Assembly: GCF_021390175.1 (NCBI RefSeq)
Contig: NZ_CP090004.1
Coordinates: 4,095,451-4,159,450, forward strand
Source: Flagellimonas sp. HMM57
Lineage (GTDB): Bacteria > Bacteroidota > Bacteroidia > Flavobacteriales > Flavobacteriaceae
DNA length: 64,000 nt
Direction of reading: 5' to 3'
The notes under the pieces were generated by a model, which was given only the letters and a program-made list of their open reading frames with translations, was not told where the DNA came from and made no database searches. Shown piece by piece: positions 37,654-61,471 of this stretch. Within the stretch, counting starts at the first letter, position 1, and each line of letters starts with the position of its first letter. A program made the position numbers and the translations under genes.

Positions 37654-37770
37654 TGCGGATAAATTTCTCTTATTTTATCAATACTTTCTAGATACCTGTT
37701 TTTACTGTGCTTTTCAGATTGTCCATGGTTTTGTCCATTATCGTTTCTAGGTAAAAAAACTTGGTAGAGA

Positions 37771-37778
37771 TAGTTTTG
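37771..37778 (+). promoter_or_regulatory. Candidate -7 box of the aerolysin-like gene
   Basis: TAGTTTTG matches the Bacteroidota -7 consensus TAnnTTTG and lies 31 nt upstream of the ATG at 37809. No good -33 TTG exists at the proper distance, so use by an activator-dependent promoter is possible. Confidence 0.4.
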
Positions 37779-37808
37779 TTTTCAGTTAACCAAGTAAATA
37801 AATTCATA

Positions 37809-39779: not shown

Positions 39780-40922
39780 CTACCCAAGTACACTACCCAA
39801 TTTGAACATTGGCAGGTACATCGCAACCAATATCACTCCCACACAGACACCAACGACCAAAATGATCATGGGTTCCAGTAACGTGCTCAATAGTTTTGAC
39901 TTTTGCTGTACTTCCACACTGTATTGCTGATTCAATCGCTCGAACATAAACTCGGTCTGATTGGTCTCTTCCGCAACTTTGACCATTGATATCATCTTAT
40001 TGCTAAACACCTTATTGCCTTTAAGGCTATTGCTCAAACTCTCCCCTTGTAGGATTTTGATGCTCACAATCTCCAGGGCATCCTGCAATGGATAAAAACT
40101 TATCATTTTCCCAGCAAGTTCTATACTGTTGAGAACAGGAACCTTGGAAGCTGTCAACAAGCTGATAGCCCTTGTAAATTGAGCCAAGTATACCGCTTTA
40201 AGAAAACTTCCCAAATACGGAACCTTTATCAACAGATAATCCAGTTTTCGCTTAAACCAATCATTGCCAAAAATAACCTTCCGCAACAACAACATTCCTA
40301 AAATTAAAGATACCATCCACCAGCCATAATCTTTGATAAAATCAGAAACTGCAACAATAAACTCGGTAATCCATGGAAGGTCAACATTGTTCTGTTTAAA
40401 AATGTCCTGAAACATGGGTACAACCATTCGCAACATAAAAACTACTACCAAAATTGCAGTAATCAAGATTATGATAGGATACGTAAGTGCATTGACCAGA
40501 TTTCTTTGTTGTTCGTTCTTCTTGGCAAAAAACAATCCTAATTCGTTTGTAATGGTGGTAAGGGTTCCAGACTCCTCTCCAATCTTAATCGAATAATACT
40601 CATATTCCGAGAATTCTTTTCTGTCCTTTATGGCTTCGGAAAAACTGTTTCCAGCAAGCAAACGTTCTCCCAAATCTTTGAACAAAACTTTTTGCTGTTC
40701 TTTTTTCTGCCCTTCCTCAATGAGTTTCAGGGCTTCTTTAAGGGTAATCCCAGCCTTTAGGAGCACACTTAGCTCTGTGTAGAAATCTTCCTTTTTCTTA
40801 TTGGAGAACGATTTTCCAAAAAAAGTCAACTCACGTTCTAAAATCGACGTTTTCTGCTCGCTCTTGGTATTATTGAGATTGGCTACAGTACCGTTATTTG
40901 TGTTGTCCAGTTTAAATCCCAT
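39780..40922 (-). CDS. Type II secretion / type IV pilus inner-membrane platform protein (GspF/PilC-like)
   Basis: The 380-residue polytopic protein has two tandem GspF domains (residues ~45-165, FYTELSVLLKAGITLKEALKLI; and ~250-370, FTRAISLLTASKVPVLNSIELAG) with hydrophobic helices ITAILVVVFMLRMVVPMFQDIF and ILVVGVCVGVILVAMYLPMF. It is the platform on which the GspE ATPase and pseudopilus work. It is the last gene of the minus-strand secretion operon, 1 nt after the preceding pseudopilin gene. N-terminal ~40 residues are a hydrophilic extension. Confidence 0.92.
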   Translation of the reverse strand: MGFKLDNTNNGTVANLNNTKSEQKTSILERELTFFGKSFSNKKKEDFYTELSVLLKAGITLKEALKLIEEGQKKEQQKVLFKDLGERLLAGNSFSEAIKDRKEFSEYEYYSIKIGEESGTLTTITNELGLFFAKKNEQQRNLVNALTYPIIILITAILVVVFMLRMVVPMFQDIFKQNNVDLPWITEFIVAVSDFIKDYGWWMVSLILGMLLLRKVIFGNDWFKRKLDYLLIKVPYLGSFLKAVYLAQFTRAISLLTASKVPVLNSIELAGKMISFYPLQDALEIVSIKILQGESLSNSLKGNKVFSNKMISMVKVAEETNQTEFMFERLNQQYSVEVQQKSKLLSTLLEPMIILVVGVCVGVILVAMYLPMFKLGSVLG

Positions 40923-40923
40923 A

Positions 40924-41388
40924 TCAATTCATAAAATCTGTAGCTGTATTTCTTTTGTAAACGAAGAGTGTCTTGAGCTGCTCACCTTCATTTATAAATT
41001 CTAGAGCATCTACCTTACCACTGTTCACTTCTTTGCCCAAAAAAAATGCCCTGTTTATTTTGAAATCGGTGAAAATCGTATCTTTTTCATTAAGCACATA
41101 CGTTTTGAAGAAACGATATTCTTTCTTTTCAATTTCATCGGTCAATGATAGCGTACCATCTTGCGGTGAAAAATAGATATCGGAATAGGAATTAAAATCT
41201 ATCCACAACGCCTGTTGCAAAAGATTGTCCTGTGCCCGCTCTTCATAACCTATTTGTATATCGTTCATCTGCCCCTGTACCAAACCTAAAACAGAAAACG
41301 CCAGTCCCACCACAATAAGGGTCAATAACAACACAACCAACATTTCACTCAATGTGAAGGCCTTTATTTTTTTAAAGGTTTTCGACAT
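40924..41388 (-). CDS. Minor pseudopilin (GspI/J-like)
   Basis: The 154-residue protein has a type III (prepilin) signal KKIKA-FTLSE followed by a single hydrophobic helix (MLVVLLLTLIVVGLAFSVLGLV). Glu at +5 is present. The residue before the predicted cleavage point is Ala instead of the usual Gly. The rest is a small beta-rich globular domain. It overlaps the upstream pseudopilin gene by 17 bp and is followed by gspF after 1 nt, so all are translationally coupled. Predicted component of the pseudopilus tip. Confidence 0.8.
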   Translation of the reverse strand: MSKTFKKIKAFTLSEMLVVLLLTLIVVGLAFSVLGLVQGQMNDIQIGYEERAQDNLLQQALWIDFNSYSDIYFSPQDGTLSLTDEIEKKEYRFFKTYVLNEKDTIFTDFKINRAFFLGKEVNSGKVDALEFINEGEQLKTLFVYKRNTATDFMN

Positions 41389-41713
41389 AATGGATTTTTC
41401 TTTTTATCGTCCTTGATCCAATAGCTTCTTTTTCGGTCACTTCAATACTGATCGTTCCATCTTCCTGAACCTCTCCAATAGCAATATTCCATGTTTCCCA
41501 TTCTTCAAAAAATGGTAGGGTTACTTTTCCATTGATAAGTTGGTATTCCAATTGGTCTAAATATGTATGTATAGGCTGAAGATTTCCTTTTACCTGAGAG
41601 GAAAACAGCGAGTTCATTACTAAACTGGAAAGCATAAAGATGACTACGATGAGTACGGTTCCTACCATCGTTTCCATTAGTGTGGATGCTTTGATTTTTC
41701 TCAGTACAACCAT
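41372..41713 (-). CDS. Minor pseudopilin (GspH/I-like)
   Basis: The 113-residue protein carries the prepilin signal RKIKA-STLME (Ala at -1, Glu at +5) and a hydrophobic helix TMVGTVLIVVIFMLSSLVM, then a short beta domain (WETWNIAIGEVQEDGTISIEV). It is small for a minor pseudopilin. It overlaps both neighbours (13 bp and 17 bp), consistent with co-translation within the secretion operon. Confidence 0.78.
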   Translation of the reverse strand: MVVLRKIKASTLMETMVGTVLIVVIFMLSSLVMNSLFSSQVKGNLQPIHTYLDQLEYQLINGKVTLPFFEEWETWNIAIGEVQEDGTISIEVTEKEAIGSRTIKRKIHYVENL

Positions 41714-42963
41714 TTGGCCAGCGTTTTTTCCTTTTGCAACAGTAAGCCTGCATAAGCCGTAGGCAAAAGCGTTGCGTTAATAGTGCCGTTGAACAGGTGG
41801 TTCTGGTAGACGCTGCCATTTTCCAGTGCAATAAAGGCATCTGTTGTTACATTGCCGATAACCTCACCTTTGAGTTCCAGGTTTTTCTCGCAATATAGCT
41901 CACCAAAGACCGTAGTATTTACTTCTATCTGTACTTGTGGAAAAAAGTTTCCTTCATCTGTTTCGTCCAAATAAGCAACGATACCCTTGACCGAAACATT
42001 TTTTCCTATCTGGATATTCGGCTCTGACTGGCTTTTTGGGTTGGATGTATTGCCTCGATGTACTACCAAGGCTGATGGATACTCCAAAATCACCCTATTT
42101 TCAACCTCGATACTTTCTGTGGCCATGCACTGTAATGTACCTTTAAATCCGGTTTCTATGATGATTTTCGGTGCTACGAGCACAACGTCTTTTAAATGGG
42201 AATCCCTGCTTACGGCTATCTGTTGTGATGCCATTATACTAATATTGCCCCGTAGTTCAACATTTGACAGCCTAATTACATCACCTTGAATATATTGTGT
42301 TGGAAATTCAAAAGAATTTGTCAGTTTTAGTCCCTGCGAAAAATGTACGTCACTGCCCCTAAAGTCACCATTTCCACTGTTTGAAAGTTGTTTTACATGA
42401 TTTTTTAAAGAACCATTGATGGTGGGAAATGTCCTGGAACTCCGTTTTACTATGCCATAAATAGGCGAATTGAATCGATAAAACTGTCCCCCTATCGTAC
42501 CGGGTCTAATGCCTTGTTCGGGTAGATATGCGTTTCCTGTGATTTTGGCGCTTCCCGCTATGATCATGGGGCGATCATTGTCCTTAAGGTAAAGTGCAGG
42601 GAACTGCTCATCAACAGCGCCACCAACCAAGGCCGTTTTTACAAATACCGTTTTTTTAAACCTGGATTTTATACCATATTTCTCAAAAACACCCCAATAG
42701 GACTTGAAGACCGACACCGCAATACCATCATCCGATGGCATTTTTAAGATTATCGAGTCATTGATTGGAATATCCTGTCTCATTGCATAGTTGAGCCCTA
42801 AATCCACTTTTTTGATTACCGCAATGGTCTTGGATGTTTTTTGATCAAAGAGCACATGGGTTTGGTGCAATAAGGTAAATGTGAGCAACAGGACAGCTAT
42901 CACAGCACCAACAAGAAGCACAAACTGTAATGCCCCTGCCCGTATTTTCGTATTAATTCGCAC
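41701..42963 (-). CDS. GspK/PilX-like pilin-related protein with beta-helical C-terminus
   Basis: The 420-residue protein starts at GTG (42963) and opens with TKIRA-GALQFVLLVGAVIAV. The K-I-R-A before a hydrophobic helix and the lack of Glu at +5 both fit a GspK/PilX-type tip protein. Residues ~200-400 are made of repeating short strands (IRLSNVELRGNISIMASQQI; VVLVAPKIIIETGFKGTLQCMA; EVIGNVTTDAFIALENGSVYQN), resembling a bactofilin-like or right-handed beta-helix. It overlaps the GspC-like gene by 11 bp. The domain pairing is unusual for GspK, so the assignment is moderate. Confidence 0.6.
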   Translation of the reverse strand: MRINTKIRAGALQFVLLVGAVIAVLLLTFTLLHQTHVLFDQKTSKTIAVIKKVDLGLNYAMRQDIPINDSIILKMPSDDGIAVSVFKSYWGVFEKYGIKSRFKKTVFVKTALVGGAVDEQFPALYLKDNDRPMIIAGSAKITGNAYLPEQGIRPGTIGGQFYRFNSPIYGIVKRSSRTFPTINGSLKNHVKQLSNSGNGDFRGSDVHFSQGLKLTNSFEFPTQYIQGDVIRLSNVELRGNISIMASQQIAVSRDSHLKDVVLVAPKIIIETGFKGTLQCMATESIEVENRVILEYPSALVVHRGNTSNPKSQSEPNIQIGKNVSVKGIVAYLDETDEGNFFPQVQIEVNTTVFGELYCEKNLELKGEVIGNVTTDAFIALENGSVYQNHLFNGTINATLLPTAYAGLLLQKEKTLAKWLY

Positions 42964-43420
42964 TTTGTAATGGTATGGTTTTTAATTTTCCCTTGTACCG
43001 TACTTTTATGTGTTGGTTATTTCCACCAACCAGGGTCACCTCGCTTTCCTTACCCCTTTTTTGCATAAGGTATTGTTTGCCACCTATGGTGACAAAAAAA
43101 ATGTGGGCATTGGTCTGTTGGTCCGTTATAAGCCCTGTATATGTTATAGTAGGAAACTCAACTGTTGGGGGTTTGGCTTTTGCGGTATTTTTGGTCTTTT
43201 TTTTTGAAGCGCTCAATGTCCCCAGAAAAGGATCTCTATAATCCGCTAGAATACTGAACGTATCCCTTTCTACTACATCCTTAGGTTTAAAATCCAGTTT
43301 TCTAGTGGTTACCGGGGCCTCGCCTTCTGGCGAAAACACACCGAGTATCCTAAACCCAATGATGCCCCATATGGCCAGAACCAGACCCAACAATAGATAT
43401 GTCTTTACATTTTTGCTCAC
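42953..43420 (-). CDS. GspC/PilP-like inner-membrane protein
   Basis: The 155-residue protein has one N-terminal transmembrane helix (YLLLGLVLAIWGIIGFRILGVF), the RDPFLG motif typical of GspC/PilP homology regions (residues ~62-67), a Lys/Pro linker and a small beta domain (ITYTGLITDQQTNAHIFFVTIGGKQYLMQKR...) like the HR/PilP fold that contacts the secretin. It starts at GTG (43420), overlapping the upstream stop as GTGA. It would link the inner-membrane platform to the GspD secretin encoded at 57536. Confidence 0.75.
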   Translation of the reverse strand: MSKNVKTYLLLGLVLAIWGIIGFRILGVFSPEGEAPVTTRKLDFKPKDVVERDTFSILADYRDPFLGTLSASKKKTKNTAKAKPPTVEFPTITYTGLITDQQTNAHIFFVTIGGKQYLMQKRGKESEVTLVGGNNQHIKVRYKGKLKTIPLQSAN

Positions 43421-44112
43421 TCCTCAACCGTAAAATTAAATGTAGTGCTGTTATCACTTTCATTACCAGCGGCATCATAGGCCCTCACGCGCCAATAAAA
43501 AGTACCCGTAGCTACGTTTGTTGAGAATGTCTTGTTGGCGCCCAAAGCTTTTGTAACCAAGTTTTGTAGGCTTTCATCCGAAAAGATAAAAATACTGTCC
43601 CGTTCCGCGGTTCCGGGAACATCTTCCCGTGTCCAAGAAAAGTTTACTGTGGCGTCACTCTGCGATGCTCCATTGGCAGGGGTTGCCAATTGTGGGGTAT
43701 TGGGAGGGATTATATCGAGGTCCTCATCGCCGTTTACCTGAAAACTGTTCAAGGTATAGGCAGTTTCATAATCGCTGTTCAATGCTTTTATGCGCCATGC
43801 GTACATCCCGTTAAAAAGATCCTGCACAATTCTAGTCTCAATGTTTCCCAAGGTATCTTCCACAATAATACTGTCCAATACGATTTGGGTGGCATTCTCA
43901 AAATTGGGCGTTGCAATTTGAATGTTGAACCGAGTGGCATCATCAATGCGTTGCCAATTGAACCCCACTTCATTAGACGTCAAAATACTTCCCTCCAAAG
44001 GGGCCAAAACAGGAACGGTCTGGTCAGAAATATCCGGAACTTCCAGAATATCCTCACAGCCCAAAAACGCCAATAAAACCACGACCAGCATATACATGTT
44101 CTTTTTTTCCAT
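43417..44112 (-). CDS. Lipoprotein with two fibronectin type III-like domains
   Basis: The 231-residue protein has a lipoprotein signal (MEKKNMYMLVVVLLAFLGC) and two Fn3-like modules: ~33-125 (VPVLAPLEGSILTSNEVGFNWQRIDDATRFNIQIA; GMYAWRIKALNSDYETAYTLNSF) and ~140-230 (PQLATPANGASQSDATVNFSWTR; GTFYWRVRAYDAAGNESDNSTTFNFTV). Its place inside the secretion operon suggests an envelope accessory role, for example pilotin or substrate docking, but this is inference. Confidence 0.7.
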   Translation of the reverse strand: MEKKNMYMLVVVLLAFLGCEDILEVPDISDQTVPVLAPLEGSILTSNEVGFNWQRIDDATRFNIQIATPNFENATQIVLDSIIVEDTLGNIETRIVQDLFNGMYAWRIKALNSDYETAYTLNSFQVNGDEDLDIIPPNTPQLATPANGASQSDATVNFSWTREDVPGTAERDSIFIFSDESLQNLVTKALGANKTFSTNVATGTFYWRVRAYDAAGNESDNSTTFNFTVEE

Positions 44113-44115
44113 TCG

Positions 44116-44844
44116 CTAAAATTTTAGATATGATCTATCGCCGTTCACTTTGATGGACTTCAAATACGTGCCCTTTGGACATTTTTCCTTCTCGGACAAC
44201 AGGTTTTCGATAATCAGATTGTGATATCTGTCCTCTCCCCAGCAAAAGTTGGCATACTGATAACCAAATATTTGAAGCTCCGAGAAAAAATACCTGTTTT
44301 CCGTTGTTCCGTTTATGGTTACAAGCTGTATGTTCCCATAAGTATCTTTTTGAAGCTGAACGGCCTCGGCTTGCAAGAAACTTGGCATTTCCGTTTCTGG
44401 GACGGTAATGTCCAATCCCGTTACCAATTTATAACCCTCATCTTGGGCGATGTAAGACCGTAGTTCTTTGTGCGTATCCGTATTCAGCAATTGGGTCATC
44501 CCCAATTTGTCCAAAAGCTGTAACCGTAGGTACTTTGGCTTGTAGGGCAACGAGTCTACATAGGCTATGCTATTTATCTTGCCCGCTTGCTCCATATACC
44601 TGGCATAGGAGCCATAACTGGTCCTATTGAACGGGAGTTGTTGTACATCGACTTTAAGGGCGGACCAATCTGGAACGCCTACTTGTTCCACCGCACTGTA
44701 CCAAAGGTCTCCCTTTGTTTTTATTAGGGTCCCCAACGCTGGAAAGTTTAATTGGGCTTCTTGTTTTTGGGCTTTGTATGCGTTACACCCCAATAAGAAA
44801 AGTATAACACAGATTACCAACGCTTTTACAAAAAAAGACTTCAT
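44116..44844 (-). CDS. Unknown lipoprotein of the secretion operon
   Basis: The 242-residue protein has a lipoprotein signal (MKSFFVKALVICVILFLLGC). The mature part is unrecognised: YLRLQLLDKLGMTQLLN, KLVTGLDITVPETEMPSFLQAEAVQL, FFSELQIFGYQYANFCWGE. It is the first gene of the leftward arm and is separated by 3 nt from the Fn3 lipoprotein gene. The IS1 insertion lies directly upstream, so its native promoter may have been displaced or may lie beyond the element. Confidence 0.6.
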   Translation of the reverse strand: MKSFFVKALVICVILFLLGCNAYKAQKQEAQLNFPALGTLIKTKGDLWYSAVEQVGVPDWSALKVDVQQLPFNRTSYGSYARYMEQAGKINSIAYVDSLPYKPKYLRLQLLDKLGMTQLLNTDTHKELRSYIAQDEGYKLVTGLDITVPETEMPSFLQAEAVQLQKDTYGNIQLVTINGTTENRYFFSELQIFGYQYANFCWGEDRYHNLIIENLLSEKEKCPKGTYLKSIKVNGDRSYLKF

Positions 44845-45017
44845 ATACTATTTTCATTTCTTAGTTGAAGGTACTGAAAATATAGTTTTTACTGAAAGTA
44901 AATTCTTTATTTAATATGTGGGCGCAATGCTTTGAGGATTCGTTCAGTTTCTCTAAAAAATTATGTTAAAGAAACAATACGTTGTCATTGCAGAAGAAAA
45001 AAGAGCATGTCAAATAT

Positions 45018-45443
45018 TCATCCCCAAAAATATATTCTTAGATGGGCTTCCAGATATTGCTGTTTTTTTGAGAAACAGATCGTTCTCCTAGCAAGTCGCT
45101 TGATATGTGTTCTTAGGGTCAGGTTCTTTCGCTCAATTGTATTGGTACAATACCGAAAGACCTTATGAATCGCTTTGGGAATCAAACTGGGATAAATATT
45201 CAATCGATCTGTATAAATACACTTTGCACCTGATAGCAAAAGTTTGTTGATCAGGGGCTGAATAGTAATCTTGGTCTTTCTACCTACCAAGAAGTCGATG
45301 GTTCTCCCGGTATTTTGTTCAATGGCATAAGTGATCCAAGCTACATTTTCCTTGTTGCCTACAAAGCTCCAAAGTTCGTCGACCTCAAACTTAACGCCCA
45401 ATTTATGAAAAGGTGGAGGTTGTATCTGTTTCCCCAGCTTCAA
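45018..45443 (-). CDS. IS1-family transposase, InsB-like catalytic part
   Basis: The 141-residue frame holds the DDE catalytic residues of IS1 transposase: VDELWSFVG (first Asp), IYTDRLNIYP (second Asp) and NTIERKNLTLR (Glu), with the usual ARRTICFSKK C-terminal motif. It lacks the N-terminal DNA-binding part, which is in the overlapping InsA frame. Homology to InsB begins further upstream in this frame than its first ATG (RSISRILDISKNTVLSRILK), showing that the protein is made only by frameshifting from insA or that the element is broken. Confidence 0.82.
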   Translation of the reverse strand: MKLGKQIQPPPFHKLGVKFEVDELWSFVGNKENVAWITYAIEQNTGRTIDFLVGRKTKITIQPLINKLLLSGAKCIYTDRLNIYPSLIPKAIHKVFRYCTNTIERKNLTLRTHIKRLARRTICFSKKQQYLEAHLRIYFWG

Positions 45444-45679
45444 TATCCTTGACAGAACGGTATTCTTGGAGATATCCAGTATTCTTGAAATACTCCTGAC
45501 CCACAGCCTTCTTTTAACAGCATTATGATAGATTGGTCGGTTTTATGATAACAAGCTTTATAACTATATTCCAATTGAAACCGTTTGTTGCACAATCTGC
45601 ATTTATACCGTTGTTTGTTGTTTTGCAGGCCACTTTTTACCGAAGGGCCATCACATTTGGGACAGCTTATTGCATCCAT
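45440..45679 (-). CDS. IS1-family InsA-like zinc-finger protein
   Basis: The 79-residue frame has the zinc-finger CPKC...YKCRLCNKRF and continues to LLKEGCGS, after which the homologous reading frame shifts by -1 and the remaining 18 residues are out of frame. A TTAAAAG stretch upstream of the switch could permit programmed -1 slippage as in IS1, but slipping there would lose the conserved EGCG, so a single-base deletion is at least as likely. Confidence 0.78.
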   Translation of the reverse strand: MDAISCPKCDGPSVKSGLQNNKQRYKCRLCNKRFQLEYSYKACYHKTDQSIIMLLKEGCGSGVFQEYWISPRIPFCQGY

Positions 45680-45696
45680 ATCCTAATTTGATACAC
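45676..45696 (-). repeat. IS-end-like repeat, copy 1
   Basis: A 21-nt segment overlapping the insA start codon, 18/21 identical to 45832-45852. It ends in ...AGGATATGG on the minus strand, directly at the insA ATG. Confidence 0.5.
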
Positions 45697-45831
45697 AATA
45701 CTATTAAAAAGCTTAATTTTAGGACGTTGAAGTTAGGATAACTTATGTTAAAGAACCAATATATGGTAAATAACGACTAATAAGATTTGGGTAATACATT
45801 ATGGTTCAATTACTTAGATAATAATTTTTAG

Positions 45832-45852
45832 CCATGTCCTATTTTGATACAT
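45832..45852 (-). repeat. IS-end-like repeat, copy 2
   Basis: A second copy of the sequence found at the insA start (minus strand ATGTATCAAAATAGGACATGG against GTGTATCAAATTAGGATATGG). It is not followed by insA coding sequence. It reads like a solo end of a related IS1 element and abuts the stop codon of the coding remnant to its right. Confidence 0.45.
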
Positions 45853-46070
45853 TACCCTATAGAGCCAGCTTGTGTTGTTACAAAAGTAGTATCTGAATCT
45901 TTCTGATTAGCTGCGGTAATAGTCCCTGCCGCTTGACTTCCCTTCTGGATACCTTTTCTTGCCTTATTACCGCTCTCAACTACACTTCTTGTTGTTGATT
46001 TTTGACTTGGACCCCCCGCTACCGCCAGTTTGCAACTGGTGGCTACAACAGTATATAATTTGGAATTGAC
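45852..46070 (-). pseudogene. Coding remnant, possibly an RHS-type C-terminal tip
   Basis: A 72-codon minus-strand frame without a start codon, ending in TAA at 45852. It encodes a Ser/Thr/Lys-rich tail (SVVESGNKARKGIQKGSQAA, then NQKDSDTTFVTTQAGSIG). Its first third runs through the REP-like hairpin at 46012-46043, so only the distal ~50 codons may be ancestral coding sequence. Position behind the RHS genes suggests a displaced tip fragment; it is too short to identify. Confidence 0.3.
46012..46043 (+). repeat. REP-like hairpin element, copy 1
   Basis: CCCCCCGCTA, then a 9-bp stem CCGCCAGTT / AACTGGTGG (one G-T pair) with loop TGC, then C. It has the same layout as the copy at 46168-46199 in opposite orientation. 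Confidence 0.65.
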
Positions 46071-46167
46071 CTAAAAAAACTGATAGTATCAATCTCGACT
46101 AACATCTTAAAAATACAAAAGCCACAACAAGGCAGTGTACTCGAATATATGTTTTCTTACTCGGTAC

Positions 46168-46199
46168 GCCACTAGTCACAGACTAGCGGGAGCGGGGGG
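46168..46199 (-). repeat. REP-like hairpin element, copy 2 (inverted)
   Basis: On the minus strand it reads CCCCCCGCTC, then an 8-bp stem CCGCTAGT / ACTAGTGG (one G-T pair) with loop CTGTG, then C. It shares the CCCCCCGCT(A/C)CCGC head, the compensated stem and the GTGGC end with copy 1, so the stem sequence differs while pairing is kept. Confidence 0.65.
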
Positions 46200-46230
46200 C
46201 TTCCTTTTCTTTTAAATCAACCAAGAAAGG

Positions 46231-46824
46231 TTAAATATTAATTGATTGGCATGATTTATCATCAAGTGCCGTTATAATACTCCCTCTATTAAATAATGTT
46301 ATTAGGCTAAATGAGTAAGATTTTTGTTCACAATCATTACTCCTAACAAAATTCTTAATCTTATTGACTAACTCTTCATAGTTTGGGATGTCTTCATTCT
46401 CTGACTCCTGCCACTTCCCATAAGCCCATTTCAAAGTTATCTTTTTGTCTTTTAGCACAATAACATATGAAGTTCTTTCGCCCTGATGATTCTCTATTAT
46501 CATAAAATCTTCAGATTGCATCTTATGCTTAGAGTATAAAAAATCTAGAATAACCTCTCTTCTGGAATCTTGATTGTTAAAGCCTGTCGATGCTCTATCT
46601 ATATAAACCATCATATTCTTCAAATGCAAATCTTCTTTATCGTTTTCTTCAGATAGAGCTCTCAAACCTTTTATGTAATCTAGGTTTTGAGACTTCCATC
46701 TCATTACTAAATCATCTGGATAATCATTTTTGATTGTATTCTTATTCGATTCATTCGTTGTCTCATAAGATTTACAACCAACTAAACAGAGACAAAAAAA
46801 CATTATTATAAAAAAATCTTTCAT
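46231..46824 (-). CDS. Unknown lipoprotein, candidate immunity protein
   Basis: The 197-residue protein starts at 46824 (MKDFFIIMFFCLCLVGC, lipobox) within a frame open to 46860 that overlaps the RHS gene. The mature part is unrecognised: WKSQNLDYIKGLRALSEEND, MIENHQGERTSYVIVLKDKK, ITLKWAYGKWQESEN. It lies 20 bp downstream of the RHS gene with the metallopeptidase tip, the position where immunity genes of polymorphic toxins are normally found. As a lipoprotein it could neutralise a toxin in the envelope. This role is inferred from position only. The distal end abuts the REP/IS debris. Confidence 0.6.
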   Translation of the reverse strand: MKDFFIIMFFCLCLVGCKSYETTNESNKNTIKNDYPDDLVMRWKSQNLDYIKGLRALSEENDKEDLHLKNMMVYIDRASTGFNNQDSRREVILDFLYSKHKMQSEDFMIIENHQGERTSYVIVLKDKKITLKWAYGKWQESENEDIPNYEELVNKIKNFVRSNDCEQKSYSFSLITLFNRGSIITALDDKSCQSINI

Positions 46825-46844
46825 ATTCTCTTCATTTAAATTTG

Positions 46845-54300: not shown

Positions 54301-54592
54301 CACCAAAATTAAGGGTCCAGCCCAGGCCAACTCGCGATGCTACTTCTTCCACCTGTATCCCTTTTGCGTGGTAACTAAGGTTTATCGGAATGGACAATCC
54401 ATCCAAGTCCACAGTGTATATGGGCACACTTATGTTTGGTGTCCCATTGTAAAAAGAGACCGGCACATCAACGTATTTTGCCAAAGCTGTAGCTTCGGGA
54501 GATGGCGGTGTAATTTTAGGCAGGTCCTGTGCACTTACAACTTGTGTAGTTAATACTATAATAAGACCAAATGCTAGTTTTTTAATTTCCAT
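51311..54592 (-). CDS. RHS/YD-repeat protein, N-terminal partner
   Basis: The 1093-residue protein has a Sec signal peptide (MEIKKLAFGLIIVLTTQVVSAQ; this sets the start at 54592 rather than the longer frame to 54730). An SpvB/RHS-shell-like N-terminus follows (VPIYTVDLDGLSIPINLSYHAKGI, VASRVGLGWTLNFGGAITRQI), then scattered YD-type repeats, ending with MTDWRGRTTTYSYDKFNRLELIKD. It has no toxin tip. In Bacteroidota such two-gene RHS pairs are common and the second protein carries the tip; the two presumably build one shell. Transcribed first in the RHS operon, divergently from the gspG-like gene. Confidence 0.86.
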   Translation of the reverse strand: MEIKKLAFGLIIVLTTQVVSAQDLPKITPPSPEATALAKYVDVPVSFYNGTPNISVPIYTVDLDGLSIPINLSYHAKGIQVEEVASRVGLGWTLNFGGAITRQIRGSADEYIPNGVKGYLRDNFLETFFTADTTRSRIYNSVLLEAQDLYPDSFMFNFLGYSGKFIFDQRTKMPVIQHFTDLRITPVWANGTVGEIAGWTVITPDGFKLHFGLSKDGVLTARDKEHVIENGVFSNGTLSSSPGSGSFNAYTSWYLMDITGPSGKTIKFKYIEEEPIYCRRSFDKMDFGSGIVSSYFAKVKPVQNQISEIVFDQGKVKFIKSNIERDDLDNAYALDKIHITDFDDILVKSYQFNYVYTTGPATNVLNALSICDQKAGKRLFLNSIDTYDKLESAALPPYQFFYNSTVLPHRFSNSQDTWGYYNGKNNGDYLTFFDYGTTTISREVDTIKSQAGMLTKIQLPTGGSMNYEYEHNRAVPPHYFKDLLFPDTNPLVSKSFGMTKDPSRYSGNAYTSESFTIGNIVGGAKIISMLGSPEECGTDQFMETCPYAAELIGSQGSIPLLNDTYDIQLPSGTYYIKVTINGGVQNNPMDIFLLPFGVSVTWKEEIGDPDPNSGTELLFTSGNRIKRTTLEDAYGGTIQKEYEYKDAQGTSSGKVFSLPSYYYQEDAMGGAVIIRRKYGARPGSPLTYEQGNHEGYEYVTEHLIGENGREGKTEHRFTVFEDSGDFYKFPYHLATDNEWMRGKPLTTKYYRKDPQDYTLIKEINHNYRYGDLVGSPFHLMVPPVSPIATNGEVYGATRTKHTASFIIFADQDGTPGDPDEYNEFKTFYLTAGTLDMHSTEEKTYDNGMLLSQKTTYSYDYDKHYQVSETESVTNNDKSVSTKTYYPSNKDILSGLSPTAYSALGLLETIRPGEPVQVEVVTKNDVGTQLSKTTTRTNFKDLQNDMVLPDIVQTAKNGGALENRILYREYDDLGNPLEVSKADGVSVSYIWGYNKTVPVAKIENATRTDIETHLGANFHTGNGGLTALQESTLRNGLSGAMITTYEYEPMVGLIKMTDWRGRTTTYSYDKFNRLELIKDNENHILEEYRYNHKN

Positions 54593-55197
54593 TAGGGTTT
54601 GGATTTTGTGATAAAGTATCGGAACATTCAAAATGTCATTTGTATGTAGAAAGCTCTGTTTTATATGCGTTTCCTGTTTATTCCTAAAGTCGTAGTTACA
54701 TTGCGCTATTGAGAAAAGTGTATAGACCAACCGTCGATGCGCTCAAATTAAAGTATGCCATCAAAAACTATATGTACCATCCCCTTTTTGATTGGGCGCA
54801 ACATGGTTTTACCTAAAAAAGCGACTACAAGAAGTGATGGAACTTTAAAAAAAGATTTATTTTCATGTTAGGTTTTTTAGATTAAAAACGATTGTTCGGT
54901 TACCAGAAAAGTAAACAATTTATCGTATCTATTTTATTACATAAATCATTTTAAATTCCACTTTTTTTATGTTCAAGCAATAGATATAAACAGGTAAGAC
55001 CATGAAAAACAAACCATTGACCACAAGTTTGTCCACACTAAATATTCCTACAAAAAATTAAAATTTAACAATTATTTAATGTTTCACCATTAATTAAATT
55101 CTTACAAATTAGAATATGAAAAAAGTTATATTTCAAGTAAGATATTATTCGTACATTTTCATGATAATTTGTTTTCCATACTAAAACCAATACTAGC
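54593..55197. other. Divergent promoter region, RHS operon / secretion arm
   Basis: A 605-bp AT-rich spacer that must drive both the RHS genes (left) and the gspG-to-gspM arm (right). No perfect TAnnTTTG box was found; TAATTTG at 55165-55171 is one base short of it for the rightward arm. Up to 54730 the RHS frame remains open. Confidence 0.35.
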
Positions 55198-55635
55198 ATG
55201 CGCAACTCGATTAAAAAGGTGGTATCAATATCTTTTTTTAATAAAAAGTTGGATGCCATTAACCTACAAGAGACTTTAATTGTACTAGCCATAATAGGGA
55301 TTCTTCTACTGTTGGCGCTCCCCAATCTTATGCCCTTGATCTCAAAAGCCAAAAGTGTTGAGGCCCAAGTACAGTTAAAGGCTATTTACAACGCCCAGAC
55401 CACGTACAGGTATATGCACAGCAAATATTCTCCCGTAATGGAGGAACTGGATTTTGAAGCACCACGAACGGTCGAGGAAAACGGAACGGCCAACTATGTT
55501 TACGAAATACTCAGTGCAGACAATGCCACTTTTAAGGCCAGGGCAGAAGCCATAACGGATTTTGATGGGGATGGTGTCTTTAACGTCTGGGAAATTGATG
55601 AAAGCGGAAATCCCAAGCAAATCGTGAAAGATTGA
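55198..55635 (+). CDS. Major pseudopilin-like protein (GspG-like)
   Basis: The 145-residue protein has the prepilin-type signal KKLDA-INLQE (Ala at -1, Glu at +5) followed by the hydrophobic helix TLIVLAIIGILLLLALPNLMPLI, then AQVQLKAIYNAQTTYRYMHSKYSP, very like GspG/PulG and PilE. The C-terminal DFDGDGVFNVWEIDESG is a calcium-loop-like acidic motif, as in calcium-binding GspG. The leader before the cleavage point is long (~20 residues). It is the first gene of the rightward arm and overlaps the peptidase gene. Confidence 0.85.
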   Translation: MRNSIKKVVSISFFNKKLDAINLQETLIVLAIIGILLLLALPNLMPLISKAKSVEAQVQLKAIYNAQTTYRYMHSKYSPVMEELDFEAPRTVEENGTANYVYEILSADNATFKARAEAITDFDGDGVFNVWEIDESGNPKQIVKD

Positions 55636-56120
55636 TTGTCCCTCTTAACCTATTGCTTATTATGTGCCTTACCGTTATTACATATCAAGATTTTAAGGAA
55701 CGAAAGGTCTTTTGGTTTCTTTTTCCATTGGCAATGCTCCTACTTGGACTGCTCTACTACTTACAAGTTACCAATGCATCCGTGTTTTTATATCAAATAC
55801 TGATAAACACTATCTTGGTCACGAGCATCTTGTCCATCTTATTTATTTACACCCGTTTTATCACTAAAAAACGTTTCTTGAATCACAGCTTGGGCCTTGG
55901 GGATATATTATTTTTTTATGCACTAAGCTTAGGGTTCCCAACACTTACATTTATTGTACTCTTTGTTGCTGCCACGATGTTTTCCCTTTTGGTCTTTTTG
56001 ATAAGTAAGCGAAATCTAAAGCACAAAACCGTTCCGTTAGCAGGATTGATGGCGCTATTTATGGTCTTTGTCATGCTATATGATCTCATATTTAAATATC
56101 CGTCGTTGTATGGCTATTGA
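55632..56120 (+). CDS. Prepilin peptidase-like A24 protease (GspO/PilD-like, short form)
   Basis: The 162-residue polytopic membrane protein has both aspartates of the A24 family: TYQDFKERKV (first Asp) and GLGDILFF (GxGD). About five or six hydrophobic helices are visible. The N-terminal cytoplasmic methyltransferase domain with paired cysteines found in PilD is absent, so it is a peptidase-only form. It starts at TTG 55632, overlapping the stop of gspG as TTGA; a later ATG at 55662 would still keep both motifs. It presumably cleaves the four pilin-like proteins of this locus. Confidence 0.85.
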   Translation: MIVPLNLLLIMCLTVITYQDFKERKVFWFLFPLAMLLLGLLYYLQVTNASVFLYQILINTILVTSILSILFIYTRFITKKRFLNHSLGLGDILFFYALSLGFPTLTFIVLFVAATMFSLLVFLISKRNLKHKTVPLAGLMALFMVFVMLYDLIFKYPSLYGY

Positions 56121-57531
56121 AACCAAACATAATTTTAAGATTGCTCCAGACCTGGTGCAACGTATTACAGCAGAACAGGCGTTTCATTACAGAATAGTTC
56201 CAAAAGAAGTAGTCGATGCCGTTTTGGTCCTTTGGACCGATGTTCCGAATCCTGAGGACCTATCCTCGGAATTGATGATCGTTATGGATTCCCCTGTACG
56301 ATTGGAACGATTATCATCTCAAGAATTACAAGATTACTTGACCGCCAATTACAGACAGGCGCAAAAAAGCCAGAACAGCGAATTGCACTATACCCCTGAT
56401 TTTCTGGAAAAAATACTGGTCAATGCAAAGACAATCGGCAGTAGTGATATCCATTTTGAACCTTATGAAACTGCATGTCGAGTCCGTTTCAGATTGGATG
56501 GAAAACTCGTAGAACAGTTTAAGGTTCCTATCAAAGAGTATCCCACAATCATCAACAAAATCAAAATAAAGGCAGATTTGGATATTGCCGAAAAGCGATT
56601 GCCACAAGACGGACGGATTACGATGAAAATGAACAATGACGAATTCGATGTTCGTGTGTCCTCCCTCCCTACTCTTTTTGGTGAAAAAATTGTACTTCGG
56701 ATCTTGAACAAGGATACCGAATCGGTCACCTTGGAAGATTTGGGGTTCAATCCCTTGGAATTGGCACGGTACAAAGAAGGCATAAAAATGCCCAATGGCA
56801 TCATTTTGATATCGGGTCCCACAGGTTCTGGAAAGACGACTACGCTCTATGCCACATTAAAAATTCTCAATGATGCCAAAACCAACATTCTCACCATAGA
56901 GGATCCTATAGAATATACCCTGGAAGGCATAAATCAAGTACAGCTAAAGGAAAATATAGGGTTGGATTTTGCAAGTGCACTACGAACCTTTTTAAGACAA
57001 GACCCAGATATTATCATGGTCGGCGAGATACGCGATGTAAAAACTGCCAACATGGCCATTAGAGCTTCATTGACCGGGCACTTGGTCTTATCTACCATTC
57101 ACACCAATTCCGCTTGGGCCACCATTTCCAGATTGATCGATATGGGAATACCTCCATTTCTTATTGCCAGTACCTTAAATACCAGTGTTGCCCAACGTTT
57201 GGTGAGAAAGTTATGTCCAAATTGTAAAAGAAAAGATGCCATAGAAAAAAGCCTTTTTCCAGAAGGGTTTCAACCTCCTAAAAGTTTGATCCATCATTAT
57301 TTACCTACCGGATGCCAAAAATGTCATCACACTGGCTATCAAGGCAGAAGGGCAGTTTATGAGATTATACCCATTACAAAGAAACTGACGCCCCATATTA
57401 AAAACAACGAATTGGATATTCAGAATTATCTGAACGAACATAACATACCAAATCTACGTGACAATGCACTAATGCTTGTTGCGGAAGGAACTACTTCTAT
57501 AGAAGAAGTATATCCCATGTTAACCAACTGA
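56110..57531 (+). CDS. Type II secretion ATPase (GspE/PilB-like)
   Basis: The 473-residue cytoplasmic ATPase has Walker A GPTGSGKT (236-243), Walker B IIMVGEIRD (~301-309), His box STIHTN (328-333) and a tetra-cysteine zinc site (C369, C372, C402, C405: CPNC...CQKC). It should power pseudopilus assembly on GspF. The start at 56110 is chosen because it begins a normal N-terminal domain and overlaps the peptidase gene by only 11 bp; a frame upstream adds 14 residues. Confidence 0.93.
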   Translation: MAIETKHNFKIAPDLVQRITAEQAFHYRIVPKEVVDAVLVLWTDVPNPEDLSSELMIVMDSPVRLERLSSQELQDYLTANYRQAQKSQNSELHYTPDFLEKILVNAKTIGSSDIHFEPYETACRVRFRLDGKLVEQFKVPIKEYPTIINKIKIKADLDIAEKRLPQDGRITMKMNNDEFDVRVSSLPTLFGEKIVLRILNKDTESVTLEDLGFNPLELARYKEGIKMPNGIILISGPTGSGKTTTLYATLKILNDAKTNILTIEDPIEYTLEGINQVQLKENIGLDFASALRTFLRQDPDIIMVGEIRDVKTANMAIRASLTGHLVLSTIHTNSAWATISRLIDMGIPPFLIASTLNTSVAQRLVRKLCPNCKRKDAIEKSLFPEGFQPPKSLIHHYLPTGCQKCHHTGYQGRRAVYEIIPITKKLTPHIKNNELDIQNYLNEHNIPNLRDNALMLVAEGTTSIEEVYPMLTN

Positions 57532-57535
57532 ACCT

Positions 57536-59755
57536 ATGAAGAAAAGCCTAATATTTTTTCTACTCCTTCTTTCTTTACCGCTATCTGGTCAAGAAGAGAG
57601 CAGAATACAGAACATAAAGAACAATCTAGAACTCCTTGCCGTCGAAAACCCAGGACTTTCAGAAAATTTAAAGCTGGACATCAATGTAAACAGTGTATCA
57701 ATTTCCAATTTTCTATTGGCAGTATCACAGGTTCACAAAGTAAATATCAATATAGACCCCAGCCTTCAGGGCATCAATATTGTGAACAACTTTTCTAACG
57801 TTTCCGTTTCCGATCTTTTGGTGTTTTTATGCAAGCAGTATCAGTTGGATATTAATTTTACCGGCAATATTCTTTCCATCCAAAAATATCAACCACCACC
57901 AGAAATCGTTCCCGAAAAAGAAGTTTTGGTTTCTTTTGATGCCTTAAACAGTCTAATTTCCTTGGACCTAAAAGGAGATCCCCTTGAAAAAGCATTTCGT
58001 AAGATTATGGACGTATCGGGGCAAAACCTGTTGTTCAATGGTGGAATGGAAACAATCCCCTTGACACTTTACATAAAAGATGTTCCTATGGATATGGCCA
58101 TGGAAAAATTGGCAGAGACCAATAATCTAAAATATGCAAAATCGAGGGATGGTTTTTATCTTTTTGATAGGTTCATTGAGAATAATTCGCCAAATTCAAG
58201 AGTTTCCGGTAGTTCATATCTGGGGAACAACAATTTTCAATATCAGGTACTTGATACGGTGAACAGAATTTTGAATGTAGATTTTACCAATGTGCCCATT
58301 GCTGACATAGTACATGAAATAAGTGTAGATCTGGATTTGGATGTCTATATGGCAACACCTTTGACCGAAGCGGGAAACATCAGTTTCAAGGCCAAGCAAA
58401 TCTACTATGATGAACTATTGACCAAGATGTTCGAGAGCAAAGCCAAATTCTCGAATCCGGTCGCTGATCCTTCTAATGGTCAACTTTCAAATCAGCCCCA
58501 AAACAGAAATCAGAACAGATCAGCTCCAAACATTGGGTTAAGTTCCAATACTGCAACGTTCACCTTTAAAAAGGAAAACGATCTCTATTTCTTTGGAACG
58601 GCAGACCAGCTCAGTGTTAGAAAGTTTGAAATTGTACAGATGATGCACCGATCCGTGGAACTTTTGGGTGACCCCATGCAATCTGGAGGATTTGGAAGAT
58701 CGGCTGGGAGAACGGTCCAAGCAGGAGTCAATTTTTTAGGTAACAACGGTTTTCAAGGTGGTGCAAATGGATTTGGAAATAATCAAGGAGGTTTTGGACA
58801 AAATCCCAATACCACGCGCAGAATCAACACCCAACCCACACAGTTTAACAATTATTCATCAAATGCAGAGGCGATTGTCAGCATCTTGCCAGATGATGTG
58901 GTCGCTGATTTGGATATCAAGATAGATTTTGAACTCAATAGTTTTCTGATTAGTGGACCTGCAGCCAACATAAATCGTTTCAAAAAATTCGTCAAAGAGA
59001 TTGACAAACCAGTTCCTGTTGTACTCATCGAGGTTATGCTAATAGAAGTAAGAAAAACGGCCACGGTAGAAACGGGAATAAGTTGGGGCATTGGTGAAGA
59101 ACCTGTGGAGACAAGTGGTGGGATTTTTCCTGAAGCAGATTTGACCCTTGGTGCTAAAACGGTCAACAAGATAATAGGTGGGTTTGATGGATTCGGCTCT
59201 TTTAACATTGGACGGGTTGTTCCCGAATTCTTTGCAACGATAAAGGCCATGGAGGCCAATGGGAATTTAAAGATCAGGTCTACTCCCAAACTCTCCACCT
59301 TGAACGGTCATCGCGCCAACCTATCCATAGGGGAAACTACATACTACGTAGTAACGAGCCAAAACTTTTTTGGCTCACAGATACCCACTACTTCCGAAGT
59401 ACGAAATTTTCAGCCCATTGATGCCCAATTGGCCGTGAGTATAAAACCCTTGGTTTCTGGTAACGGACAGGTAACCTTGGACATCAACGTCATACAATCC
59501 GATTTTAGCTCAGAGCGAATAGATGAGGATGCTCCTCCCGGCCTAACTTCTAGGGAGTTTAGTTCTATCATACGAATGCAAAATCAAGATTTGGCTATTT
59601 TGGGCGGACTGGAGGAAAAGGTAAAGAACGATTCAGGTAGTGGAGTGCCATTTTTGGCAAGGATACCGGTAATCAAATGGCTATTCAGCAAAAGAAGAAG
59701 AGAGGATACCAAACAAAAACTTACCATTCTTATTAAACCTACAGTAATCTACTAA
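57536..59755 (+). CDS. Secretin (GspD/PilQ-like outer-membrane channel)
   Basis: The 739-residue protein has a signal peptide (MKKSLIFFLLLLSLPLSGQ), an N-terminal STN-like domain (LKLDINVNSVSISNFLLAVS), a second short-STN/N-domain region (FDALNSLISLDLKGDPLEKAF), further N-domains, a Gly/Asn/Gln-rich insert (~390-425) and a C-terminal secretin domain (VPVVLIEVMLIEVRKTATVETGISWG; RSTPKLSTLNGHRANLSIGE; IRMQNQDLAILGGLEEKVKN). It forms the outer-membrane pore. The final strand KQKLTILIKPTVIY is intact. Coupled to the next gene by a TAATG overlap. Confidence 0.92.
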   Translation: MKKSLIFFLLLLSLPLSGQEESRIQNIKNNLELLAVENPGLSENLKLDINVNSVSISNFLLAVSQVHKVNINIDPSLQGINIVNNFSNVSVSDLLVFLCKQYQLDINFTGNILSIQKYQPPPEIVPEKEVLVSFDALNSLISLDLKGDPLEKAFRKIMDVSGQNLLFNGGMETIPLTLYIKDVPMDMAMEKLAETNNLKYAKSRDGFYLFDRFIENNSPNSRVSGSSYLGNNNFQYQVLDTVNRILNVDFTNVPIADIVHEISVDLDLDVYMATPLTEAGNISFKAKQIYYDELLTKMFESKAKFSNPVADPSNGQLSNQPQNRNQNRSAPNIGLSSNTATFTFKKENDLYFFGTADQLSVRKFEIVQMMHRSVELLGDPMQSGGFGRSAGRTVQAGVNFLGNNGFQGGANGFGNNQGGFGQNPNTTRRINTQPTQFNNYSSNAEAIVSILPDDVVADLDIKIDFELNSFLISGPAANINRFKKFVKEIDKPVPVVLIEVMLIEVRKTATVETGISWGIGEEPVETSGGIFPEADLTLGAKTVNKIIGGFDGFGSFNIGRVVPEFFATIKAMEANGNLKIRSTPKLSTLNGHRANLSIGETTYYVVTSQNFFGSQIPTTSEVRNFQPIDAQLAVSIKPLVSGNGQVTLDINVIQSDFSSERIDEDAPPGLTSREFSSIIRMQNQDLAILGGLEEKVKNDSGSGVPFLARIPVIKWLFSKRRREDTKQKLTILIKPTVIY

Positions 59756-60969
59756 TGCTCGATTTTTTAAAGACATATTTTACCAAAGGAAATACTTTTT
59801 ATGGATTGAAAATCTATCAAGTGGAAAATACGATCAAGTTCCATCTTGTGGAAGCTATTAAAAAGAAAGGGGAACTCACCATTGCCAATAGCCAGGACTT
59901 TGATGAACTGCAAATGCTCTCTAAACTTTGTAAAACTTCGGTCCCACTCTATCTTATTTGCAACACTACAGATGTTATCACCAAGCAACTTGAAGCAACA
60001 TCCAGCCTTAGTAGCGAAGCAGCTGTTGAACGTATGTTCCCGGGGCTAGACCTCGATGTTTTCTATTATCAGATTTCAAAGCTCAAGAACCATTTATTGA
60101 TCAGCATTGCTAAAAAAAATGGTGTTGATAGCTATTTAGAGAAATTAAAGGAAATGAATTTTAGGGTTACAGGGTTCTCGTTGGGGCTATCCACATTGGG
60201 TTCTCTGATAAATTTCATCAATAACGAAACTATTTATACGAACACAAATAAAATAGCTTTTGATACTGGACCAAACTCAAAACTTTCAATTTCCAAAGTT
60301 GACAATGCTACCCAAGTTAGCTATACTATTAATGGATTACAAATGAAAAATTCCGCTTTAGTGGCTTTTTCAGGGATATTGGACTTCTTATCGGATAGCG
60401 CAGCGCATAATTCCAATTTTAAACCTACAGTACAAAGCCTTCAAAATGACTTTAAACAAAGTAGAGTCTTCAAGATTGTTTCCAGGTCTTCCTTAGTTGT
60501 ACTATTGATTATCTTACTTTCCAATTTTTTAATTTTCAGTTACTATTTTGATGAAGTAGCTTCATTAAAAGAAAATTTAGCGTTTGATAATGAGAATAAA
60601 AAAAATCTCATGGCACTAACAGACGCGGTAGCGGAAAAAGAAAAAAAAGTGGACGCCGTCCTATCGGTTTCAAATTCAAGGTCTTCTTACTACTTGGATG
60701 AATTGGGGACCTCCATTCCCAAAAGCATACTATTGGATGGAATACAGTACCAACCACTTATAAAACCGGTACAAATATCGAAACCTATCGAAGTGAACAT
60801 TGACGAACTTATCGTGACAGGAAATTGCATTAATAGTGAAGATTTTTCATCGTGGTTGATATATCTGGAAAGATTGGAATGGGTCAGGTCCGTAGAGACT
60901 TTAGAGTACGACTACAAAAATCAAAACAGCTCAAATTTTAAGATAAAGATCAGTGCAACAGCTCCTTAA
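59755..60969 (+). CDS. GspL / PilM-PilN-like assembly protein
   Basis: The 404-residue protein has an N-terminal cytoplasmic part (~1-240) with actin-like/PilM features (GNTFYGLKIYQVENTIKFHL; FRVTGFSLGLSTLGSLINF; NKIAFDTGPNSKLSISK), a single transmembrane helix (SSLVVLLIILLSNFLIFSYYF), a coiled coil and a periplasmic PilN-like domain (ILLDGIQYQPLIK to FSSWLIYLERLEWVRSVETLEY). This is the layout of GspL, where PilM and PilN are fused. It should connect GspE to the periplasmic part. Confidence 0.75.
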   Translation: MLDFLKTYFTKGNTFYGLKIYQVENTIKFHLVEAIKKKGELTIANSQDFDELQMLSKLCKTSVPLYLICNTTDVITKQLEATSSLSSEAAVERMFPGLDLDVFYYQISKLKNHLLISIAKKNGVDSYLEKLKEMNFRVTGFSLGLSTLGSLINFINNETIYTNTNKIAFDTGPNSKLSISKVDNATQVSYTINGLQMKNSALVAFSGILDFLSDSAAHNSNFKPTVQSLQNDFKQSRVFKIVSRSSLVVLLIILLSNFLIFSYYFDEVASLKENLAFDNENKKNLMALTDAVAEKEKKVDAVLSVSNSRSSYYLDELGTSIPKSILLDGIQYQPLIKPVQISKPIEVNIDELIVTGNCINSEDFSSWLIYLERLEWVRSVETLEYDYKNQNSSNFKIKISATAP

Positions 60970-61471
60970 AAATAAAGTAGTTCTCTTATTGCTATTGCTA
61001 TTGCTGGCATTGCTCATATGTTATAAATTGGCAATATCCAACACATTGGCCCTTAAAAAAGAATACCGTTCCCTAAAAGCGGAAGAGCAATTGTTCAATG
61101 ATATTCCACAACAATTAATGTTTCTCTCCAAAAAAGAAAAGCACTTAGACTCATTACTACAAACACTGAATTTGAACAATACTTCATTGGAAAATAATCT
61201 ACTGCGTGTTGTGAACAGCGAGTCAGCCAAAAACAATCTGAAGGTCATGGATTTCAATCCACCGCATAGAGTGATTACGGATAATAATTCCGTTACTACC
61301 TATGAATTTGTTTTAAGGGGTGGTTTTACCAGTATTTTGAAGACCATTTACACCATTGAGAATCAGTCTACCTTTGGAAAGGTCATACATTTAAATTTTA
61401 CCAAGGAGAAAAATTACAGGACAAACAAAAAGTATTTAGAGGTTAAAGTATTAATGCAACATATTGAGTAG
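60953..61471 (+). CDS. GspM/PilO-like protein
   Basis: The 172-residue bitopic membrane protein starts at GTG (60953), overlapping the preceding gene by 17 bp. It has an N-terminal transmembrane helix (VVLLLLLLLLALLICYKLAI), a coiled coil (KKEYRSLKAEEQLFNDIPQQL) and a small ferredoxin-like periplasmic domain (YEFVLRGGFTSILKTIYTIENQSTFGKVIHLNFTKEK). It is the last gene of the rightward secretion arm. No GspN-like gene follows. Confidence 0.72.
   Translation: MQQLLKNKVVLLLLLLLLALLICYKLAISNTLALKKEYRSLKAEEQLFNDIPQQLMFLSKKEKHLDSLLQTLNLNNTSLENNLLRVVNSESAKNNLKVMDFNPPHRVITDNNSVTTYEFVLRGGFTSILKTIYTIENQSTFGKVIHLNFTKEKNYRTNKKYLEVKVLMQHIE

Follow-up and report, generated by a model that had tools for sequence, protein, structure and literature searches.

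A type IV filament machine and a paired RHS shell as its probable cargo in Flagellimonas sp. HMM57 and other Bacteroidota

The window considered here is a 64,000-nucleotide stretch of the Flagellimonas sp. HMM57 genome (GCF_021390175.1, contig NZ_CP090004.1, positions 4,095,451 to 4,159,450 of the forward strand), 22 kb of which (39780..61471) carry a type IV filament-type machine in two arms, set on opposite strands and separated by an interval holding two rearrangement hotspot (RHS) proteins (RHS1 and RHS2), a 209-aa lipoprotein, an IS1 relic and a REP-like palindrome. The locus probably joins such a machine to its cargo, an RHS shell that would be exported through it. This cargo relation is well supported, because RHS genes and machine co-occur and co-localise far above chance and the RHS proteins carry no sorting tail of the type IX secretion system (T9SS). 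The link points to what the Bacteroidota machine may carry out of the cell and, if RHS toxin shells are its cargo, these bacteria gain a toxin-export route besides the type VI secretion system (T6SS) and the T9SS. The machine itself, its separation from the true type II secretion system (T2SS) and a cluster in one species were known before; the generality of the link, its joint gain and loss, and a module of shell, fibre and chaperone genes are new.

Among 120 genomes of the window's own family, 23 were positive for the secretin of the machine and 22 for DUF6443, a domain of RHS2 (21 of these over the family cut-off). Both were found in 21 genomes, the secretin only in two, DUF6443 only in one and neither in 96 (Fisher p 3.9e-20), and one of the two genomes tallied as secretin-only (G057) has an RHS1 gene adjoining the machine. 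At the secretin loci of same-family relatives, RHS genes adjoin the machine in 20 of 22, the two misses being a locus without RHS (G084) and one on a 5.8-kb contig (G079). In a sample of 395 genomes from the whole phylum the corresponding counts were 27 with both, 5 with secretin only, 38 with DUF6443 only and 325 with neither (p 3.6e-19), where 32 of the 44 genomes with a secretin match at E <= 0.001 were counted, together with 65 DUF6443 genomes, 62 of them over cut-off. The 12 secretin genomes dropped (G475, G163, G194, G226, G333, G337, G357, G379, G431, G458, G466 and G485; nine from one family) had short or C-terminal matches and all lack DUF6443; including them gives 27/17/38/313 and p 3.4e-13.

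The association is also one of position. Outside the window's family, RHS genes, labelled by best matches to our own profiles at E <= 1e-4 (by a DUF6443 match in G120), lie within about 20 kb of the secretin in 19 of 23 loci from 21 genomes, two of which (G138 and G234) are without DUF6443, and the linkage was observed in eight families beyond the window's own. In a further set made of the best 80 of 477 secretin matches, with flanks of up to 10 kb and partly overlapping the genome samples (L131, from the non-pathogenic marine species Flaviramulus basaltis, and G049, for example, are the same genome), an RHS gene was present within about 10 kb in 65 loci and either an RHS or a fibre-like gene in 73, while four of the other seven start at a contig edge. 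In all 11 genomes with both genes on a chromosome-size contig, the distance from the secretin to the nearest DUF6443 was 7.7-27.3 kb (combined p 1.7e-10, some of the contig figures being rounded). Chance co-location is rejected by the co-occurrence and distance p values, and the link between RHS genes and machine holds well beyond chance and generalises.

Joint gain and loss were followed on a tree built from pyrG for 60 of the 120 same-family genomes, namely 22 of the 23 secretin-positive ones (G083 had no pyrG match), the RHS-positive but secretin-less G115, and 37 other secretin-negative genomes, a non-random choice made by hand on index and quality. The secretin label required 17 changes, against a mean of about 18 after shuffling, and is therefore not clustered on the tree. 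Six independent pairs could be drawn on starred branches, and in these the RHS genes differed in the same direction as the secretin in 5.5, in the opposite direction in 0.0 and not at all in 0.5 (median p 0.031, range 0.031-0.219). Secretin presence is thus scattered across the tree and RHS tracks it; shared ancestry alone is rejected by the pair test, with few well-supported branches.

Regarding the machine itself, the plus-strand arm (55198-61471) encodes a G-type major pseudopilin (55198..55635; PilA-type model 4.4e-14 and GspG model 4.4e-07, both below cut-off), a prepilin peptidase-like O protein (55632..56120; PF01478, Peptidase_A24, 0.0025, below cut-off), the PilB/GspE ATPase E (56068..57531; PF00437, T2SSE, 2.7e-132), a D/PilQ-like secretin (57536..59755; PF00263, Secretin, 1.9e-36) whose nearest named relative is from Flagellimonas sp. 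389 (97%), and two proteins that by position would be L/PilM-PilN-like (59755..60969; PilN 0.033, below cut-off; conserved family A6) and M/PilO-like (60953..61471; GspM model 0.03, below cut-off; conserved family A7). The minus-strand arm (39780-44844) comprises the GspF/PilC-type inner-membrane platform protein F (39780..40922; PF00482, T2SSF, 2.7e-44), the minor pseudopilin mp1 (40924..41388; N_methyl 21.6 bits, cut-off 21.2), the minor pseudopilin-like mp2 (41372..41713; a weak GspG match of 0.0089, in a conserved position), a putative K-like protein (41701..42963; Bactofilin 4e-4, below cut-off; conserved family A5) and a protein C/PilP-like by position (42953..43420; no family match, best PDB match 0.4; conserved family A4). 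It ends with an immunoglobulin (Ig)-like lipoprotein (43417..44112; Big_13 6e-4, below cut-off; conserved family A8) and a 242-aa lipoprotein-like protein (44116..44844; no credible family match; conserved family A9) that travels with the F arm; these two adjoin C in all 11 loci of the 80-locus set with a visible F arm and are therefore part of the machine.

One locus thus holds secretin, ATPase, platform protein, pseudopilins and prepilin peptidase, of which O, G and mp2 score weakly. A preliminary description of this DNA had listed a series of Gsp-type parts, to be verified by hidden Markov model searches. From their sequences F, E and D can be taken as certain T2SS/type IV filament proteins, just as described, the assignments of G, O and the minor pseudopilins being weaker; no match over cut-off to GspC, K, L or M was found among the window proteins, the C-, L- and M-like profiles brought no useful match in PDB, and these four identities lean on the gene order and the protein families conserved among relatives. 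The secretin profile (A1) is nearest to PilQ in PDB (6.7e-31), with GspD next, yet the secretin scores slightly higher with the GspD model than with the PilQ model, and the ATPase scores higher with PilB than with GspE. With the curated pilus models the scores stay below cut-off (PilB 519.4/675.65 and PilQ 133.5/284.35 bits). The only T2SSE match over cut-off in the genome is the E gene of this locus, the same search revealing no PilT-type retraction ATPase over cut-off. According to the passages covered of Denise 2019 (PMC6668835), what is called T2SS in Bacteroidetes invariably groups with the type IVa pilus (T4aP) and is maybe a separate secretion system, and those of Wang 2017 (PMC5553014) report the machine from Cytophaga hutchinsonii and from four further Bacteroidetes, including two of the genus Flavobacterium. 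Because of the sub-cut-off Gsp and Pil scores, the split PilQ/GspD affinity and these two accounts, the machine is best termed T2SS-like, that is, a Bacteroidota type IV filament machine with a secretin nearest PilQ.

The RHS genes are found on the minus strand where they had been described, RHS1 at 51311..54592 (start placed at the methionine of its Sec signal, the open frame extending to 54730; RHS_repeat 4.3e-07) and RHS2 at 46845..51311 (PF20041, DUF6443, 1.1e-41; PF19081 8.2e-19; TIGR03696 1.9e-15; PF14891 0.0019, below cut-off). RHS2 is made up of a Sec signal, an Ig-like domain, DUF6443, YD repeats, an RHS core (residues 1177-1262, with DPDG at 1259) that matches YenC2 in a profile search (5.7e-6), and a metallopeptidase-like tip with HELIH at residue 1411. 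RHS1 would be the TcB-like half of the shell: its predicted model is closest to YenB/TcB (2.8e-18, TM 0.34), the sequence profile reaching only 0.16 against the YenB sequence. Sec-type N-termini, read directly from the sequence, are present on both proteins, as previously claimed. The pair is interpreted as a polymorphic toxin whose TcB/TcC-like shell carries variable tips; in a set of 87 pieces from the C-termini of RHS1 and RHS2 proteins (250 aa each, 56 from machine-bearing and 31 from machine-less genomes), single members match Ntox10, Tox-ART-HYD1, M23, Cytotoxic, CdiA_C, Tox-MPTase2 or HNH. The claim that the RHS proteins bear no T9SS tail was borne out on the window proteins and on all 87 pieces (complete Pfam list; 25 of 27 NCBIfam families shown), and export by such a tail is rejected, the single SprB repeat match (1/87 pieces, 0.0022) not being a sorting tail; elsewhere in the genome 11 T9SS tails score over cut-off.

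DUF6443 occurs at three places in the genome. At another RHS pair of the same genome (G000:C1:47451-51109, L073), RHS1 reads as two open reading frames (ORFs) of 101 and 1111 aa, and in two relatives' loci (L054, G017:C9; L039) additional C-terminal pieces of RHS2, interspersed with small genes, resemble displaced toxin-tip cassettes.

In relatives the space between G and the nearest RHS gene (or the locus end) forms a slot with 226 ORFs of at least 120 aa across the 80-locus set. One slot family accounts for 120 proteins from 42 loci, with variable N-termini and a common C-terminal module; of seven members scanned, two match Laminin_G_3, two DUF2341 and one malectin over cut-off, and two of three fibre-like proteins match a phage tail fibre family (8.1e-17 and 1.9e-07). 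Fibre-like and RHS genes run head to tail, 84 of 92 gaps measuring 50 bases or less. Tandem tail-fibre-like genes lie left of G in L079, L089, L097 and L126 and also occur in the window's own genome (G000:C1:1397456-1400452). The slot further holds an OmpH/Skp-like family in 17 of the 80 loci (scanned member 2.3e-23) and a response regulator family in 15. The OmpH/Skp-like gene (L146:2323-2856, L126:1869-2402) mostly adjoins a long RHS1 type (9 of 11 loci by a motif rule). The window's own slot has neither a fibre-like nor a Skp-like gene, and beyond the window the fibre module occurs at ten sites of that genome. The module as a signal exclusive to T2SS genomes is rejected: in the 120 same-family genomes it is present at E < 1e-35 in 15 of 23 secretin-positive but also in 9 of 97 secretin-negative ones (32 of 97 at E <= 0.001). 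Its profile found nothing useful in PDB and its structure model is poor, with a predicted local distance difference test (pLDDT) score of 57.4.

Gene order varies considerably among relatives. A synteny search had been proposed for RHS pairs lying between the arms; the RHS-machine link proved to be far above chance, but the between-arms layout itself was seen in three loci only, those of the window, G049 and G102 (whose stretch holds only part of the F arm), a layout that the 10-kb flanks of the 80-locus set are unable to reveal. Of the 11 loci of that set with a visible F arm, six have adjacent arms with RHS outside and five no RHS in the flank, and in other loci the arms are adjacent and the RHS genes lie upstream of G, beyond C or after F. 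The order in G049, on one strand, is RHS1, 3 bases, RHS2, 18 bases, a small gene, 480 bases and the F arm. That the RHS genes and F arm of the window formed a single transcript before the IS1 insertion is plausible.

Several observations weigh against the export of RHS shells by the machine. Linkage is conserved, but the split arrangement is one of several and is not. Machines without RHS in the stretch read exist (G084, G130, G135, G335 and, at a contig edge, G280), and the phylum search scored at most two secretin candidates per genome, so that members may be missed. RHS pairs without the machine occur mainly in other families: all 18 DUF6443 genomes of families f2, f4 and f8 in the phylum sample are without secretin or T2SSE over cut-off, and within the window's family G176, G203, G361 and G440 (phylum sample) and G115 (120-genome sample) are RHS-positive and secretin-less. 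There must therefore be another exit, or RHS there stays in: RHS can leave without this machine, has switched exporter, or is retained. The RHS1 model is of low confidence (pLDDT 62.8, pTM 0.58), no part passes a curated Gsp cut-off (GspD 140.5/351.35, GspE 491.1/630.25, GspF 258.2/424 and GspG 30/88.85 bits), the pair test is limited by a pyrG tree in which 10 of 57 inner branches are starred and 29 lie under 80, and the Cytophaga hutchinsonii mutants in the passages covered of PMC5553014 point to cellulose-related surface proteins. As for the preliminary proposal that a dedicated machine exports the RHS proteins, the cargo relation stands, while the word "dedicated" is unsupported, because of RHS pairs without machine, machines without nearby RHS, and fibre-like proteins in the same slot.

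By a simple rule of ours, RHS2 from 18 of 20 secretin-less loci have Sec-type N-termini, and on a tree of the 55 RHS2 sequences, out of 75, with a matched stretch of more than 250 aa, the secretin-less group stands mostly apart from the linked one (8 changes, shuffled mean 17.4). A missed T2SS is an insufficient explanation for RHS-only genomes, 33 of 39 lacking a strong T2SSE match; strong PilB-like matches are found in G250, G292, G307, G317 and G390 and a weaker one in G444.

In the proposed mechanism, RHS1 and RHS2 would reach the periplasm by Sec, as their signals suggest, and fold, to judge from their homologues, into a TcB/TcC-like shell around a variable toxin tip that would be cut free at the RHS core. 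The folded shell would then exit through the secretin, driven by the pseudopilus, and in relatives the Skp-like chaperone and the tail-fibre-like proteins, some of lectin type, may aid folding and target binding. A broader version, in which throughout the phylum this type IV pilus-derived secretin machine, apart from the true T2SS, serves as dedicated exporter of a periplasm-built Tc-like toxin, with a two-RHS shell, a Skp-like chaperone for solubility and lectin-tipped fibres that through their common C-terminal module replace TcA in target finding, is offered tentatively, as a rather speculative extension. The fibre and chaperone genes yield further specific predictions.

It is conceivable, though unlikely, that the cargo of the machine is something else, mainly tail-fibre-like proteins or enzymes, and that the RHS pair takes another way out of the cell. 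The machine-less RHS pairs of f2, f4, f8 and a few same-family genomes would be accounted for in this manner, as would the size of the fibre-like family, the 8 of 80 loci with a fibre gene and no RHS in the flank, the fibre genes adjoining RHS also in the T2SS-less genomes X201 and X203, and the cellulose phenotype of C. hutchinsonii. However, 31 of the 80 loci resemble the window in having RHS and no fibre gene left of G, and the fibre module follows the secretin less closely than DUF6443 does (21/23 vs 1/97 of the same 120 genomes).

Filament cargo might also be displayed rather than released. A short pilus tipped with the RHS shell and used in contact-dependent killing, instead of a secretion pump, would agree with the PilQ-like secretin profile, the preference of the ATPase for PilB and the grouping of the Bacteroidetes machine with T4aP; the absence from the genome of a PilT-type second ATPase over cut-off, the slightly higher score of the GspD model and the lack of a pilin domain in scans of the window's RHS1 and RHS2 make this improbable. 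Least likely, and by a long way from the export of an RHS shell by the filament machine, is that machine and RHS genes merely ride together on one mobile island with no functional link. Such passive transfer could produce the patchy presence on the tree, the IS1 and REP elements of the window and the repeats flanking the Flavobacterium psychrophilum cluster (passages covered of PMC5808330), but linkage persists although the order varies, RHS being found next to G, past C or behind F, and it does so in eight families outside the window's own.

The remaining features of the interval lie on the left of RHS2. A 209-aa lipoprotein gene (46231..46860, minus strand; signal read from sequence, no family over cut-off) overlaps the RHS2 stop and encodes a candidate immunity protein. 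The IS1/REP scar noted earlier is indeed there, as a REP-like palindromic element without strand (46012..46199; 32-base inverted repeat), which has four more matches at three genome sites, and an IS1-family relic (44958..45761, minus strand; PF03400 3.5e-24; approximate limits set at a 22-base direct repeat) with a transposase fragment (45018-45542) and a zinc-finger-like frame (45440-45682). A 78% partial copy of the relic stretch lies at G000:C1:940733-941069, close to a further RHS2 gene in this genome. Adjoining the F arm, a 585-aa protein (37761-39518) gives a faint match to the BSAP5b pore-forming toxin model (0.026, 13.9/380 bits).

Within a literature search whose scope was without bioRxiv preprints and most subscription papers, no title or abstract start generalised the machine-RHS link. 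The putative T2SS of C. hutchinsonii and other Bacteroidetes (PMC5553014) consists of the same components (F, G, O, E, D, L/M/C candidates and minor pseudopilins), and that account, in the passages covered, ties the machine to cellulose use with no mention of RHS genes. For Flavobacterium columnare, the passages covered of PMC5524665 report a partial T2SS and a unique RHS-core protein in the same strain. Comparable too is the cluster of F. psychrophilum CC-ST10 in the passages covered of Duchaud 2018 (PMC5808330), where T2S genes in two opposite loci, two ABC-toxin-domain proteins, a putative adhesin and an OmpH/Skp-type chaperone lie together; it shares the divergent T2S loci, toxin pair, adhesin and chaperone, but concerns one species in a passing remark, with no survey or co-occurrence test in those passages. 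At the protein level, T6SS Rhs effectors share the RHS shell fold and toxin tip, the RHS proteins described here differing by their Sec signals. The TcB-binding domain of TcA (TcA_TcB_BD) was found in none of the 23 secretin-positive genomes and in none of 14 controls, so that this search is uninformative. The TcB-TcC shell of Tc/ABC toxins (YenB/YenC2) is resembled in the RHS1 model nearest TcB, the RHS2 core nearest YenC2 and the variable tip after the core, whereas here the shell would be built from two proteins with their own Sec signals, RHS2 adds an Ig-like domain and DUF6443, and a secretin machine adjoins.

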